From assembly GCF_003697345.1 (NCBI RefSeq), contig NZ_RFLY01000004.1, positions 124,001 through 188,000 of the forward strand: 64,000 nt of DNA, written 5' to 3'. The stretch's first letter is position 1. Each line of letters opens with the position of its first letter. Both the position numbers and the translations under genes were made by a program. The notes under the pieces are model-generated. The model had not been told where the DNA came from and ran no database searches. It worked only from the letters and a program-made list of their open reading frames with translations. This document shows positions 18,225 through 41,459 of the stretch, in pieces. The DNA comes from Solilutibacter pythonis (GTDB taxonomy: Bacteria > Pseudomonadota > Gammaproteobacteria > Xanthomonadales > Xanthomonadaceae).

Positions 18225-19429
18225 ACAACGCCCGTCGAACCGGCTTCCTCGCCGCGCTGCTGACCGTGATGAGGAAGGAACTACGCGACTTCACCCGCGA
18301 CCGCAAAACCCTCCTGCTCACCCTGCTGATGGGCCCGCTGGTCTATCCGATCATGATGCTCGGCATGGGCAAGCTGAGCGAAATGCGCCGCAGCACACAG
18401 TTGGAAAAGCCACTGGCGATCGCCATCGTCGGGCACCAGCGCGTGCCCAATCTCACCGCCTTCCTGGCCAGCCAGGGCATCACCGCGATGAACTCGCCGC
18501 CCGGCGACGTCGAGGCGGCCATCCGCGCGCAGGATCAGGACGTCGCCCTGGTCATCGACGAGAAATTCGACGACGACTGGGCGGCCGGACGGCCGGCGCG
18601 CGTCACCATCGTCGCGGATTCCACTAGACGCAATGCCGATATACCGGTCGCCCGCGTGAACGCCGCGCTGGATGCCTACAGCCAGACCACCGGCGCGACG
18701 CGCCTCCTGGCCCGCGGCATCAACCCCGGCATCACCCGGGCGCTCGGCGTCGACCGCAAGGACATGGCGACACCGGAGGCCAAGCGCGGCGTATTGCTCT
18801 CGGTGGTCATGCCGCTGATCCTGCTGATCCTGGCCTTCATCGGCGGCGCGCACCTGTCGATGGACACCACCGCCGGCGAGCGCGAGCGTCAATCGCTGGA
18901 ACCCTTGCTCGCCACCCCGGCGTCGCGCGCGGCCCTGGTCAGCGGCAAGATGCTGGCCGCGGCCCTGGTCGGCATCACCAGCCTGGTGCTGACCCTGCTG
19001 GCGTTCAAGCTCAGCGCCAACCTGGCCGGCACCGGCATGGCGCGGATGATGGACGTCAGCCTGCCGGCCATCGCCGGGATGCTGCTGATCCTGCTGCCGC
19101 TGGTGCTGATTGGCACCGCGCTGCTGACCTTCCTTTCGGCCAACTCCAAGAGCATGAAAGAAGCGCAAGCGCAGATGACCTGGCTGCTGTTCCTACCGAT
19201 GGTCCCGGCCTACGCGCTGATGGCCTACCCGCTGAAGGACACCGAACTGTGGCAGTACGCGGTGCCGTTCCTGTCGCAGAACCAGATGCTGGCGAAAGTA
19301 TCGCGCGGCGAAATGCCGGGGCCGGAGCAATGGGCGGTGTACCTGGCGGCGGCCCTGGCGCTGGCCACCGCATTGTGGGCGGCGGCGGTGTGGCGCTACA
19401 AGCAGGAAAAACTGGCGATCGCCTCCTGA
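18221..19429 (+). CDS. ABC transporter permease (NatB / ABC-2 type)
   Basis: This is the membrane subunit paired with the NatA-like ATPase (402 aa). The first TM helix (LLLTLLMGPLVYPIMMLGM, about residues 28-46) precedes a large extracytoplasmic loop of about 150 residues, as in NatB. A cluster of five or six helices follows from about residue 190, including LLSVVMPLILLILAFIGG and AIAGMLLILLPLVLIGTALL. ERERQSLEPLLATPASRAAL between helices is a conserved ABC-2 cytoplasmic motif. The operon ends at a bidirectional-looking hairpin. Confidence 0.88.
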
Positions 19430-34853: not shown

Positions 34854-34894
34854 GCGGTAATCCCGCTCAAACCCCGCTTGGTCACGGGTGGGAA

Positions 34895-34903
34895 TGGTAA
34901 TCT
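34895..34903 (+). promoter_or_regulatory. Candidate extended -10 promoter for dnaA
   Basis: TGGTAATCT provides a TGn extension plus a -10 of TAATCT (34898-34903), about 48 bp upstream of the dnaA ATG. No convincing -35 is spaced at 17 bp. Confidence 0.35.
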
Positions 34904-34950
34904 GGCAAGTTCGCGCGATCCTGCCACCCGCACTTCTGGAAGCTTTTTCG

Positions 34951-36312
34951 ATGAACCAGCCCTTGCACCCCGCCCCTTCCTCCACCATGGACGTCTGGGG
35001 ATTGTGCATGGAGCGGCTATCGGCCGAACTGCCACAGGAAGAAGTCCATACCTGGCTGAAGCCGCTGCATGCGCGCATGCACGAGGACAACCTGCGCCTG
35101 TACGCGCCCAACGCCTTCGTGCTGGAGGAAGTGCGCGATCACCACCTGCCGCGCATCCGGGAACTGGCCCGCCATTTCGGCGGCATCTCCGGGGTCGATC
35201 TCGCGATTGGCGCGGGGCCGGTCGCACCGCGCCCGGATGCAATCGCCAAGCCTGCCACGACCACGCCCTCAGGCGTGGCCGCGGAACCGTTCCAGAGCAA
35301 CCTCGACCCCTATTACCACTTCGAGAACTTCGTCGAGGGCCGCAGCAATCAACTGGCCCGCGCCGCCGCGTTGATGTCCGCCCGGGCGCCCGGCGCGCGC
35401 GAGCACAACCCGCTGCTGCTCTACGGCGGCACGGGCCTTGGCAAGACCCATCTGATGCTGGCCGCCGGCAACGAGATTCACCGCGTGAACCCGGCCGCGC
35501 GGGTGCTCTACATGCGCTCCAACGAGTTCTACAGCGAATTCGTCGCGGCGCTCAAGGAAAGCCGCGTGGATCGGTTCAAACGTCGCTTCCAGCAAGTCGA
35601 TACCTTGCTGATCGACGATATCCAGTTCTTTGCCGGCAAGGACCGCACCCAGGAGGAGTTCTTCCACACCTTCAACATGCTGCTGGCCGGCAAGCAACAA
35701 CTCATCCTGACCAGCGACCGCTACCCCAAGGAGGTCGAAGGTCTGGAACCCAGACTGAAATCGCGACTCAACTCCGGCCTGTCGGTGGCGATCGACCCGC
35801 CGGATTTCGAGACCCGCGCGCTGATCGTCCTAGCCAAGGCCCGCGAACGCGGCGCGGAAGTGCCAGAAGAAGTGGCGATGCTGATCGCCAAGCGGATGCA
35901 CTCCAACGTCCGCGAACTGGAAGGCGCGCTCAATTCCCTGGTGGCGCGCGCCAACCTGCTGGCGCAACCGATCACCACCGAGTTCGCTTTCGACACCCTG
36001 CGCGACCTGTTCCGCTCACAGCAGGCGGTCATCAGCATCCCGAACATCCAGAAAGTAGTGACCGACTACTACGATCTGCCGCTGCGGATGATGCTTTCCG
36101 ACACCAAGAAACGCACCATCACCCGTGCCCGGCAGATGGCGATGGCGATGGCGCGCGAGTTGACCGACCGCAGCCTGCCCGAAATCGGCGAAGCCTTCGG
36201 CCGCGACCACACCACGGTGATCAATGCCTGCAAGGTGATTCGCAAGCTGGTGGAGAGCGACGCCAAGATCCACGAGGACTGGGAGAAGCTGATGCGCAAG
36301 CTCACCGAATGA
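34951..36312 (+). CDS. dnaA: Chromosomal replication initiator DnaA
   Basis: DnaA is an AAA+ ATPase that binds DnaA boxes and opens oriC (453 aa from the ATG at 34951). The N-terminal domain I ([20 protein letters not shown]) interacts with helicase loaders, and a short variable linker follows. The AAA+ core has [17 protein letters not shown] (Walker A, about residue 160) and [13 protein letters not shown] (Walker B, about 219). The C-terminal DNA-binding domain has the DnaA signature [14 protein letters not shown] (about 417-430). An alternative start at 34987 begins at MDVWG but has no visible ribosome-binding site. Confidence 0.97.
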
Positions 36313-36557
36313 TTCTGCGCACAACCCGTCTGGCAAGCTGTGGAAAAAGTGTCGATTAAATTTTCACCCAAAATCATCCACAACCTGTACCCAACCAGAG
36401 CCTCCGGCTGTACACCCATTTGAAACCCGAAAATTCTTTTTTGAAATCAATTAGATAAGGCGTTTTCCAGCGAAATCGCCGCTACCACCGCCACCTCGTT
36501 TATAGTTTATACACCTTAGAAAAGCCGTCTCAGGCAACTGTCAAGGAACTACCGACC
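36313..36557. other. Probable oriC region between dnaA and dnaN
   Basis: This 245-bp gap holds TCATCCACA at 36374-36382 (8 of 9 to the DnaA box TTATCCACA) and TGTGGAAAA at 36339-36347 (8 of 9 to the reverse box). An AT-rich stretch around 36409-36460, with CTTTTTTG and ATCAATTAGATAA, could serve as the unwinding element. TATAGT (36501-36506) and TATACA (36508-36513) near the right end could be -10 elements for dnaN. No convincing DnaA boxes were seen between rpmH and dnaA. Confidence 0.65.
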
Positions 36558-37655
36558 ATGCGTTTCTCCCTGCAACGCGAGGCATTACTGAAGCCCCTCG
36601 CCCAAGTCGTCAACGTGGTCGAACGCCGGCAAACTTTGCCGGTACTCGCCAACCTCCTGGTCCAGGTGGAAGACGGTCGTCTATCCATGACCGGCACCGA
36701 TCTAGAAGTGGAAATGATCGCGCGTAGCGAAGCCCAGGACACCGAACCCGGAGAAGTCACGATCCCGGCGCGCAAGTTCTTCGATATCGTTCGTGCCCTG
36801 CCCGACGGTAGCAAGATCACCGTCAGCCAGGCCGGTGACAAGATCAGCGTGCAAGCGGGGAGAAGCCGCTTCAGCCTGGCCAGCTTGCCGGTGACTGATT
36901 TCCCCTCGATCGACGAAGTCGACGCCACGGAACACGTGCAAGTGCCGGAATCGGCGTTGAAGGAATTGATCGACCGCACCGCTTTCGCCATGGCTCAGCA
37001 GGACGTGCGTTACTACCTCAATGGCCTGTTGTTCGACTTGCGTGATCAGACCTTACGCTGCGTGGCGACGGATGGTCATCGTCTCGCACTTTGCGAAGCG
37101 GCATTGGAACAGGACGGCCAGAAACGTCAGATCATCGTTCCACGCAAGGGCGTGCAAGAGCTACAAAGGCTTTTGGAAGGCGGTGATCGCGTGCTGGACC
37201 TGGAGCTGGGACGCAGTCATATCCGCGTCAAGCGTGATGATGTGACATTCACTTCGAAATTGATCGATGGTCGCTTCCCGGATTACGAAGCGGTCATTCC
37301 GATTGGCGCAGACAAACAGGTTACGGTCGATCGTGAGGCGCTACGGGCGGCTTTGCAGCGTGCGGCGATCCTGTCGAACGAGAAATATCGCGGCGTTCGC
37401 GTGGAAGTTTCGCCCAACCAATTACGCATCCAGACCAACAATCCCGAACAGGAAGAGGCTCAAGAAGACGTCGAAGCCGATACGCGCGTGGATGGATTGG
37501 CGATCGGCTTCAACGTGACTTATTTGCTGGAAGCGCTCAGTGCCTTGCGCGACGAGCATGTGGTGATTTCCATGCGCGATGCCAATTCTTCCGCGTTGGT
37601 GCAAGAAGCGGGTAACGAACGTAGCCGCCACGTCGTGATGCCTTTGAGGCTTTGA
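36558..37655 (+). CDS. dnaN: DNA polymerase III beta sliding clamp
   Basis: DnaN is the ring-shaped processivity clamp of the replicative polymerase (365 aa, normal length). It starts MRFSLQREALLKPLAQV and contains RRQTLPVLANLLV, FPSIDE and VATDGHRLAL of domain II, GRFPDYEAVIP of domain III, and the C-terminal VMPLRL. The gene begins after a GTCAAGGAACT leader. It is followed by a parS-like palindrome and a terminator-like hairpin before recF. Confidence 0.97.
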   Translation: MRFSLQREALLKPLAQVVNVVERRQTLPVLANLLVQVEDGRLSMTGTDLEVEMIARSEAQDTEPGEVTIPARKFFDIVRALPDGSKITVSQAGDKISVQAGRSRFSLASLPVTDFPSIDEVDATEHVQVPESALKELIDRTAFAMAQQDVRYYLNGLLFDLRDQTLRCVATDGHRLALCEAALEQDGQKRQIIVPRKGVQELQRLLEGGDRVLDLELGRSHIRVKRDDVTFTSKLIDGRFPDYEAVIPIGADKQVTVDREALRAALQRAAILSNEKYRGVRVEVSPNQLRIQTNNPEQEEAQEDVEADTRVDGLAIGFNVTYLLEALSALRDEHVVISMRDANSSALVQEAGNERSRHVVMPLRL

Positions 37656-37669
37656 CGTGTCGGAACTTC

Positions 37670-37685
37670 TGTTCCACGTGAAACA
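37670..37685. promoter_or_regulatory. parS-like ParB-binding site 1
   Basis: TGTTCCACGTGAAACA matches the bacterial parS consensus TGTTnCACGTGAAACA. It lies between dnaN and recF, 15 bp after the dnaN stop. Sites of this kind near oriC load ParB for chromosome segregation. Confidence 0.85.
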
Positions 37686-37687
37686 TC

Positions 37688-37715
37688 ACCGCCCGGCCAA
37701 GCCGGGCGGTTCTGT
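37688..37715 (+). terminator. Terminator-like hairpin after dnaN
   Basis: A perfect 10-bp stem ACCGCCCGGC / GCCGGGCGGT with loop CAA is followed by TCTGT, a weak U-tract. It lies between dnaN and recF, immediately after the parS-like site, and could attenuate read-through into recF. Confidence 0.6.
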
Positions 37716-37738
37716 ATCCGCGCACCCAAAAAACTGAA

Positions 37739-38827
37739 ATGCGCATCACCCGTTTAGATCTGCAAGACATCCGTTCGATTACCGAAGCTCGGTTGGAACC
37801 AGGCCCCGGTTTGAATTTGTTGTTTGGCGAAAACGGTGCCGGAAAGACCAGCGTGCTTGAGGCATTGCATTTGCTGGGATACGGGCGAAGTTTTCGAGGA
37901 CGAGTGCGCGATGGGCTGATCCGTACTGGTGCGGAAGCTTTGCAAATCTATGCCGAATGGCAAGACACGGGCGCCTCCAAACATCGCGCGGGATTACGAC
38001 ATGAAGGAGCCAACTGGAGCGCACGCCGGGATGGGACTGACGTTGCCCAATTGGGTGATCTGTGCGCCACTTTTGCTGTTTCCACCTTCGAGCCGGGTAG
38101 TTATGGCTTGGTTGCGGGTGGCGGGGAGCCGAGAAGACGTTTTCTCGATTGGGGCTTGTTCCACGTGGAACAAGACTATCTTCATGCGTGGCGGCGCTAT
38201 GTCAGGGCCCTCAAGCAGCGAAATGCCTTGCTAAAAGTGCGGCGTACCGGTACTCAGCTGGACGCCTGGGATCATGAATTGGTGGAAGCCGCATTGCCGC
38301 TGCAACGACAACGCGAAGCTTATGTCGCCGCGTTGTTGCCGCATTTGCAGGCGGTGGCTGAGCAATTGTTGCCGGCGTTTGGCATCGTCGCATTGAACCT
38401 TCAGGCGGGCTGGAAAAAAGAATCGATGTCGCTGGCCGATGCTTTGCTGCTTGGCCGTGATCGTGATCTGGCATTGGGCCATACGGGCGTTGGGCCGCAT
38501 CGGGCCGATTGGCGGGTAGATTTCGTGGCCCGGCCGGAAAGAGAACCTTATTCGAGAGGCCAGGCGAAATTGGTGGCATTGGCCTGCCTGTTGGCCCAGG
38601 CTCGGCACCTGAACCAAGTGCGCGGCGCTTGGCCGTTGATGTTGTTGGACGATTTCGCTTCTGAACTCGATGCCAAGCATCGTCGCCGCGTGCTCGACGA
38701 ACTTTTGGCGGGGGGAGCGCAGGTATTCATGACCGGAGTCGAATCACCGCCTGAGCTGATGGATGCTCCTGTTGCCTTGTTCCACGTGGAACAAGGTGTC
38801 GTGCGCCGACAGTTATCGGCGAGCTGA
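37739..38827 (+). CDS. recF: DNA replication and repair protein RecF
   Basis: RecF is an SMC-like ATPase that helps load RecA at gapped DNA (362 aa). The start MRITRLDLQDIRSI is typical. Walker A is FGENGAGKTSVLEAL, the signature region is PYSRGQAKLVALACLL, and Walker B is WPLMLLDDFASELD. Two parS-like palindromes are embedded in the gene. Both encode LFHVEQ, once in the middle and once near the C-terminus, so two unrelated places in the protein carry the same hexapeptide because of the DNA site. Confidence 0.96.
   Translation: MRITRLDLQDIRSITEARLEPGPGLNLLFGENGAGKTSVLEALHLLGYGRSFRGRVRDGLIRTGAEALQIYAEWQDTGASKHRAGLRHEGANWSARRDGTDVAQLGDLCATFAVSTFEPGSYGLVAGGGEPRRRFLDWGLFHVEQDYLHAWRRYVRALKQRNALLKVRRTGTQLDAWDHELVEAALPLQRQREAYVAALLPHLQAVAEQLLPAFGIVALNLQAGWKKESMSLADALLLGRDRDLALGHTGVGPHRADWRVDFVARPEREPYSRGQAKLVALACLLAQARHLNQVRGAWPLMLLDDFASELDAKHRRRVLDELLAGGAQVFMTGVESPPELMDAPVALFHVEQGVVRRQLSAS
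38157..38172. promoter_or_regulatory. parS-like ParB-binding site 2 (inside recF)
   Basis: TGTTCCACGTGGAACA is a perfect 16-bp palindrome of the Pseudomonas-type parS form. It extends to 18 bp of dyad symmetry with the flanking T and A. It lies in frame within recF. Confidence 0.85.
38778..38793. promoter_or_regulatory. parS-like ParB-binding site 3 (inside recF)
   Basis: A second exact copy of TGTTCCACGTGGAACA lies near the 3' end of recF, again read in the frame that gives LFHVEQ. It is 621 bp from site 2. Confidence 0.85.

Positions 38828-38900: not shown

Positions 38901-41459
<2,559 letters not shown>

Follow-up and report, generated by a model that had tools for sequence, protein, structure and literature searches.

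The chromosome of Solilutibacter pythonis carries, close to its probable origin, three copies of a 16-bp palindrome, one of them just before recF and two inside the gene, and this raises the question of whether they are the sites from which the chromosome is partitioned and, if so, how one stretch of DNA can serve both a centromere and a protein. We addressed it in a stretch of 64,000 nucleotides (hereafter the window; Table 1), in the draft genome to which it belongs (2,929,486 bases in 74 contigs, scored 100% complete), in 99 genomes of the family, the window's own included, and in a sample of the class Gammaproteobacteria. The initial annotation had reported parS-like sites at positions 37670, 38157 and 38778, and all three are there, without a mismatch to the parS consensus TGTTNCACGTGNAACA. 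It was equally right that the two recF copies (sites A and B, spaced 621 bp apart) are read in a common frame, xTG TTC CAC GTG GAA CAx, which gives LFHVEQ twice. Its description of the sites as lying beside dnaN and within recF is accurate for A and B, the first site being situated in the dnaN-recF gap.

Table 1. Features of the origin region of S. pythonis, in window coordinates
Feature	Position	Strand	Description
dnaA, replication initiator	34888..36312	+	ORF; named from gene order and motifs assumed to be diagnostic; true start codon may be downstream of 34888
dnaA-dnaN gap, probable oriC	36313..36557		245 bp, 54% AT
dnaN, beta clamp	36558..37655	+	ORF of 365 aa; named from gene order dnaA-dnaN-recF-gyrB and features assumed to be diagnostic
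parS-like site 1	37670..37685		TGTTCCACGTGAAACA; dnaN-recF gap; 0 mismatches to TGTTNCACGTGNAACA
recF	37739..38827	+	ORF of 362 aa; TIGR00611 above cut-off, 318.9 bits; matches solved RecF structures
parS-like site 2 (site A)	38157..38172		TGTTCCACGTGGAACA; inside recF; encodes LFHVEQ, residues 140-145; exact match
parS-like site 3 (site B)	38778..38793		TGTTCCACGTGGAACA; 3' end of recF; encodes LFHVEQ, residues 347-352; exact match
gyrB	38934..41459	+	ORF; named from gene order and sequence features assumed to be diagnostic

Exact matches to TGTTNCACGTGNAACA number three in the entire draft genome, all in a single 1.1-kb stretch of the window, against a chance expectation of 0.003 for a genome of this size (window base composition, independent bases), and copies with one mismatch are absent from all of its 2,929,486 bases. 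At two mismatches there are five matches genome-wide, while the same pattern read backwards as a control gives two at two mismatches or fewer. Hence the genome-wide search that the initial annotation had proposed finds no palindromes scattered over the genome, every exact or one-mismatch site lying near the origin beside dnaA-dnaN. The origin itself is probably located 1.2 to 2.4 kb from the sites, as indicated by gene order, by the cumulative GC-skew minimum at 36828 near the dnaA-dnaN gap and by that gap itself; the names dnaA, dnaN and gyrB depend on gene order and, in part, on sequence features that we take to be characteristic of these genes. The strict DnaA box TTTTCCACA matches the window once, in the gap (36339-36347), with a chance expectation of about one per window. 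Measured from the midpoint of the gap (36435), the three sites lie at 1.2, 1.7 and 2.4 kb; the 1.1 kb earlier given as their distance from the origin is correct as the span of the three sites instead.

The genome also encodes a cognate ParA and ParB. Its single ParB (TIGR00180 match, 3.2e-58) is specified at 18704-19204 of the contig that bears the parS-like sites (C44), outside the window, and follows a ParA-like ORF with the stretch KGGVGKTT and gidB, both identified by eye, in the order gidB-parA-parB about 143 kb from the sites. The ParB protein aligns to solved ParB and Noc structures and contains a GERRWRA stretch, which we take to be the CTP-binding motif; a full-length SMC protein is encoded as well. 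The absence of a parABS locus, which the initial annotation had regarded as potentially fatal to its proposal, is therefore not what we observe.

The family is taken to be Lysobacteraceae, to which the named genomes closest in recF belong (70% and 65% identity), and conservation within it follows the same pattern. A site with at most one mismatch is present in all 99 genomes and an exact one in 70, whereas the backwards control has an exact match in none. Counting the window's three, sites with no more than one mismatch total 276, and 268 of them fall inside regions of about 5 kb around recF; the remaining eight are fewer than the 13 control matches and hence no more than expected by chance. 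The even spread of palindromes that had been named as contrary evidence is thus not seen in the family either. At aligned places and with at most one mismatch, site A occurs in 96 of the 99 recF genes and site B in 92, both being kept in 89 genomes, A only in seven and B only in three. The position of site 1 is less conserved, as just 42 of 98 fetched family genomes have a site between -130 and 0 before recF; 26 of the 98 have one further upstream in the fetched stretch and seven have one downstream of recF. Two family loci (L198 and L199, from genomes G050 and G005) encode a RecF of about 415 aa; parS-like sites number four in this region, including one downstream of the gene.

Across the class, RecF scored above the cut-off in 155 of 187 genomes, and we examined 130 of these 155 genes, namely 30 loci from the class search and 100 fetched loci that were picked by hand, approximately by RecF score and with some congeners skipped, before their sites were viewed. 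Aligned sites with at most one mismatch are found at A in 107 of the 130 genes and at B in 101; 91 genes have both, 16 only A, 10 only B and 13 neither, so that at least one is present in 117. A ParB match was recovered in 179 of the 187 genomes, including 12 of the 13 without either recF site, and the 15-mer TGTTYCACGTGRAAC is present in 157 of the 187.

A simple rival account treats FHVE as a peptide conserved in RecF for its own sake, from which the palindromes arise as a by-product without any role as DNA. Selection on the protein alone would leave the codons for FHVE to match the general codon use of each gene, and for genes encoding FHV[EK] we therefore set the core codons CAC GTG (G/A)AA against that use. 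In the family these codons are used in 98 of 98 genes at A (10.9 expected) and 96 of 97 at B (10.8 expected), and in the class in 106 of 110 at A (7.8 expected) and 103 of 107 at B (8.1 expected); a near-invariance of synonymous codons of this kind is left unexplained by the by-product account. The lowest-entropy 14-nt stretches of the family recF genes are precisely the two sites, and the codon test and the entropy profile together point to constraint at the level of DNA. Consistently, the 110 FHV[EK] peptides at site A in the class correspond to 107 sites with at most one mismatch and three with two mismatches, and at site B 101 of 107 such peptides go with a site of at most one mismatch; none of the 20 other peptides at A or the 23 at B does so, which is largely forced by the genetic code. 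Where a single mismatch occurs it is nearly always in an outer base: in the family all 53 such A sites have it at position 16, and 44 of 45 such B sites at position 1 or 16, while in the class it is outer in 49 of 50 cases for A and 23 of 25 for B. This outer base follows the encoded amino acid; in the family, 48 of 96 A sites have E followed by proline, and in 31 of 92 B sites arginine precedes F.

A comparison of named RecF loci bears on the same account from the protein side; it used 29 of 32 loci (L010-L038), three partial matches (L039-L041) being left out. Among the 27 further named RecF rows L012-L038, FHV is absent from site A in 24, many of which show LDRLVLALEP or a similar stretch there, and in the three that have it (L012, L013 and L017) the DNA is within one mismatch of parS, both of which speak against a by-product. 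Outside the class site B is variable, and L014, L015 and L021 have FHVE or FHVQ there without parS DNA, which favours one. Escherichia coli K-12, the sole named ParABS-free control, belongs to the Enterobacteriaceae, described as being without chromosomal par genes (PMC4368675); its RecF has CFHNEP and MFTVEK at sites A and B, with six and three mismatches to parS. In class recF genes from which parS is gone, F and H or Y likewise often remain at site A. In a RecF model (mean pLDDT 91.8; 29-sequence alignment) residues 140-145 of site A form the end of one helix and the start of the next, and residues 347-352 of site B lie in a C-terminal beta hairpin. Persisting as they often do without parS, the F and the H or Y of site A, like the F-x-V of site B, seem to be partly under protein constraint as well.

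Genomes that have lost ParB offer another view of the same constraint. In one family of the class (f22), of which we examined 30 recF loci (28 new and two earlier ones), 8 of 36 genomes are without a ParB match. One genus in it (g67) has a usable recF in 7 of 10 genomes, G296, G299 and G300 being excluded as recF is absent, partial or broken. Its four single-contig ParB-less genomes (0.6-1.0 Mb) have 5, 3, 3 and 3 mismatches at site A and 4, 1, 1 and 2 at site B, as against 1, 1 and 3 at A and none at any B in three ParB-bearing congeners. The CACGTG core is intact in one of eight sites in the former and five of six in the latter (Fisher p 0.026, on a small set of related sequences from one genus), although site A is worn in one of the ParB-bearing congeners (G294) too, and drift in these shrunken genomes confounds the link between ParB loss and site decay. 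FHV is retained at site B in all four ParB-less single-contig genomes, as would be expected of a by-product. Against a dependence on ParB, recF sites are kept in three drafts from other genera that lack a ParB match, namely G290 (85% complete), G305 (110 contigs, 98% complete) and, for site A, G293 (360 contigs), and G198, again with no ParB match, keeps site B; intact sites in ParB-less drafts are perhaps explained by parB missing from fragmented or incomplete assemblies. In four further loci of this family (L337, L348, L350 and L354) site A has been lost, the peptide reading FHTN, and a parS-like site occurs at recF +698 or +710 in another frame, while in a genome of the S. pythonis family (L192) site A is worn to four mismatches and a one-mismatch site occurs at recF +13. 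These replacement sites suggest that parS can move within recF and that the FHVE frame is not the sole solution.

Taken with the lack of any other site in the S. pythonis genome and the presence of the third in non-coding DNA, neither of which a conserved peptide would explain, these observations make it very improbable that the recF palindromes are a by-product. The related idea that FHVE was a pre-existing RecF motif which parS hit by chance was rejected for most of the motif on account of the outgroup residues at site A, the E. coli RecF and the codon test, the three outgroup rows with FHVE or FHVQ at site B but no parS DNA being the counterpoint. What emerges instead is likely to be two layers of selection, in which the DNA signal fixes the codons (at A probably V and E/K as well) while the protein holds on to F and H/Y. 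The suggestion in the initial annotation that the protein accommodates the DNA signal gains support from the codon invariance, from the association of FHV[EK] with parS in the class and from an E. coli RecF that has neither, and further from site decay in the single-contig ParB-less genomes of one genus. The comparison of RecF homologues with and without LFHVEQ, which it had recommended, bears this out as regards the codons, which go with parS, and less so as regards the residues, some of which persist without parS, with FHVE or FHVQ also found outside the class.

Bacillus subtilis parS sites differ from those described here in number and placement. The sites nevertheless resemble the B. subtilis Spo0J sites in being 16-bp palindromes with a CACGTG core clustered near oriC, and differ from them beside the core, where mostly C..G is found here versus T..A in B. 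subtilis and canonical parS (consensus as given in PMC4368675). The closest precedent is Pseudomonas aeruginosa, in which parS1 and parS2 are placed in recF (PMC5521831), where PMC3909081 likewise puts the closest parS sites, and have the same 16-mers in recF near oriC as found here, parS1 being listed as TGTTCCACGTGGAACC and parS2 as TGTTCCACGTGGAACA (PMC4368675). In that organism parS1-4 are reported as bound by ParB in vivo, with a ChIP-seq consensus of TGTTCCACGTGGAACM that tolerates C at the outer base (PMC5098823). Its intragenic parS sites have been recoded with the protein unchanged, and the substitutions tabulated along with the sequences (PMC4368675) are synonymous in the frame that we find here. 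P. aeruginosa differs in having two more strong sites, parS3 and parS4, described as intergenic (PMC5521831), whereas S. pythonis has its third site in the dnaN-recF gap and no others in the draft, and in having parAB about 7 kb from oriC (PMC3909081) as opposed to about 143 kb from the sites. In Xanthomonas citri the parS TGTTCCACGTGGAACG is given at the 3' end of dnaN (c2753..2768), about the same place as our site 1; that organism is credited with "at least one" parS site, and recF is not mentioned in the main text of the paper (PMC3937727). In Caulobacter, parS insertions are listed as having two hot spots, of which recF-gyrB is one (PMC5815017). A search of a 2020 review of chromosomal ParB (PMC7022226) turned up nothing on parS inside genes, and a class-wide conservation of recF parS was not found described in the literature searched, a set to which the parS survey of Livny et al. 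2007 does not belong. Thus a parS nested in recF is already known in one species, P. aeruginosa, and its conservation is wider than reported in the literature searched. Both this breadth and the constraint that a centromere places on the codons, and partly the residues, of RecF may be new.

Two rivals remain that accept a function of the palindromes as DNA. Many DNA-binding proteins recognise palindromes built around CACGTG, and the sites might accordingly bind a regulator or Noc in place of ParB. The Noc-binding site has CCCGGG as its core palindrome, whereas CACGTG is the core in all three sites. That another factor is responsible seems to us extremely unlikely, as two of the three copies lie inside a gene body, site decay accompanies ParB loss in one genus, and the two recF 16-mers are identical to the parS2/parS3 sequence bound by ParB in P. 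aeruginosa (PMC4368675, PMC5098823). Scarcely any likelihood attaches, too, to the view that ParB binds here while a diverged sequence at another place serves as the main centromere: a site in a gap of the 74-contig draft would be missed and five two-mismatch sites do occur at other places, but their number is not far above the two of the backwards control, such sites are reported as unbound in vivo in P. aeruginosa (PMC5098823), and the family sites are concentrated at recF.

The uniqueness of the palindromes, their clustering at the origin, the presence of parAB and SMC, their conservation, the codon constraint and some decay in ParB-less genomes together indicate that they are very probably the sites of ParB nucleation, or parS, of this chromosome. 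We accordingly hold with high confidence, from comparative sequence evidence, that they belong to the chromosomal ParABS system and together form its origin-proximal centromere, two of the three sites being written in recF under selection for ParB binding. By analogy with other bacteria, the three would act as the working centromere of this chromosome: ParB dimers would load at each site and close into CTP-dependent clamps, spreading over the flanking dnaN-recF-gyrB DNA, after which ParA would move the ParB-DNA complex and ParB would load SMC, with the outcome that the two new origins separate first. Read in the shared frame, the palindrome would yield FHVE, a peptide that RecF presumably tolerates, and selection for ParB binding would then hold fixed the choice among synonymous codons and some of the residues at the recF sites.

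A broader scenario is conceivable, though we advance it tentatively and would not be surprised to see it fail. In it the two-site recF centromere is ancient and class-wide in Gammaproteobacteria, the codons of the two peptides and some of their residues are set by the centromere and not by the work of RecF, and carriage of the centromere is one reason why recF stays next to oriC; loss of ParB would be followed by drift, and loss of a recF site by the reappearance of parS in or near recF. If the sites are indeed parS, the same nucleotides would do duty as centromere and as protein code in much of a bacterial class, with both sites found in 91 of the 130 recF genes examined, and one could then test whether a signal in DNA dictates the sequence of a protein. 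A RecF motif that looks conserved would in part be centromere and not enzyme, and in many genomes not yet characterised recF would show where ParB is likely to bind.

In G076 (L197), G299 and G300 the recF reading frame is apparently broken, either by stop codons or by a shift from one frame to another. Five class genomes (G161, G179, G275, G143 and G252) have a weak best RecF match (2.2e-8 or worse) yet carry parS copies elsewhere, G275 having several of them within about 9 kb.
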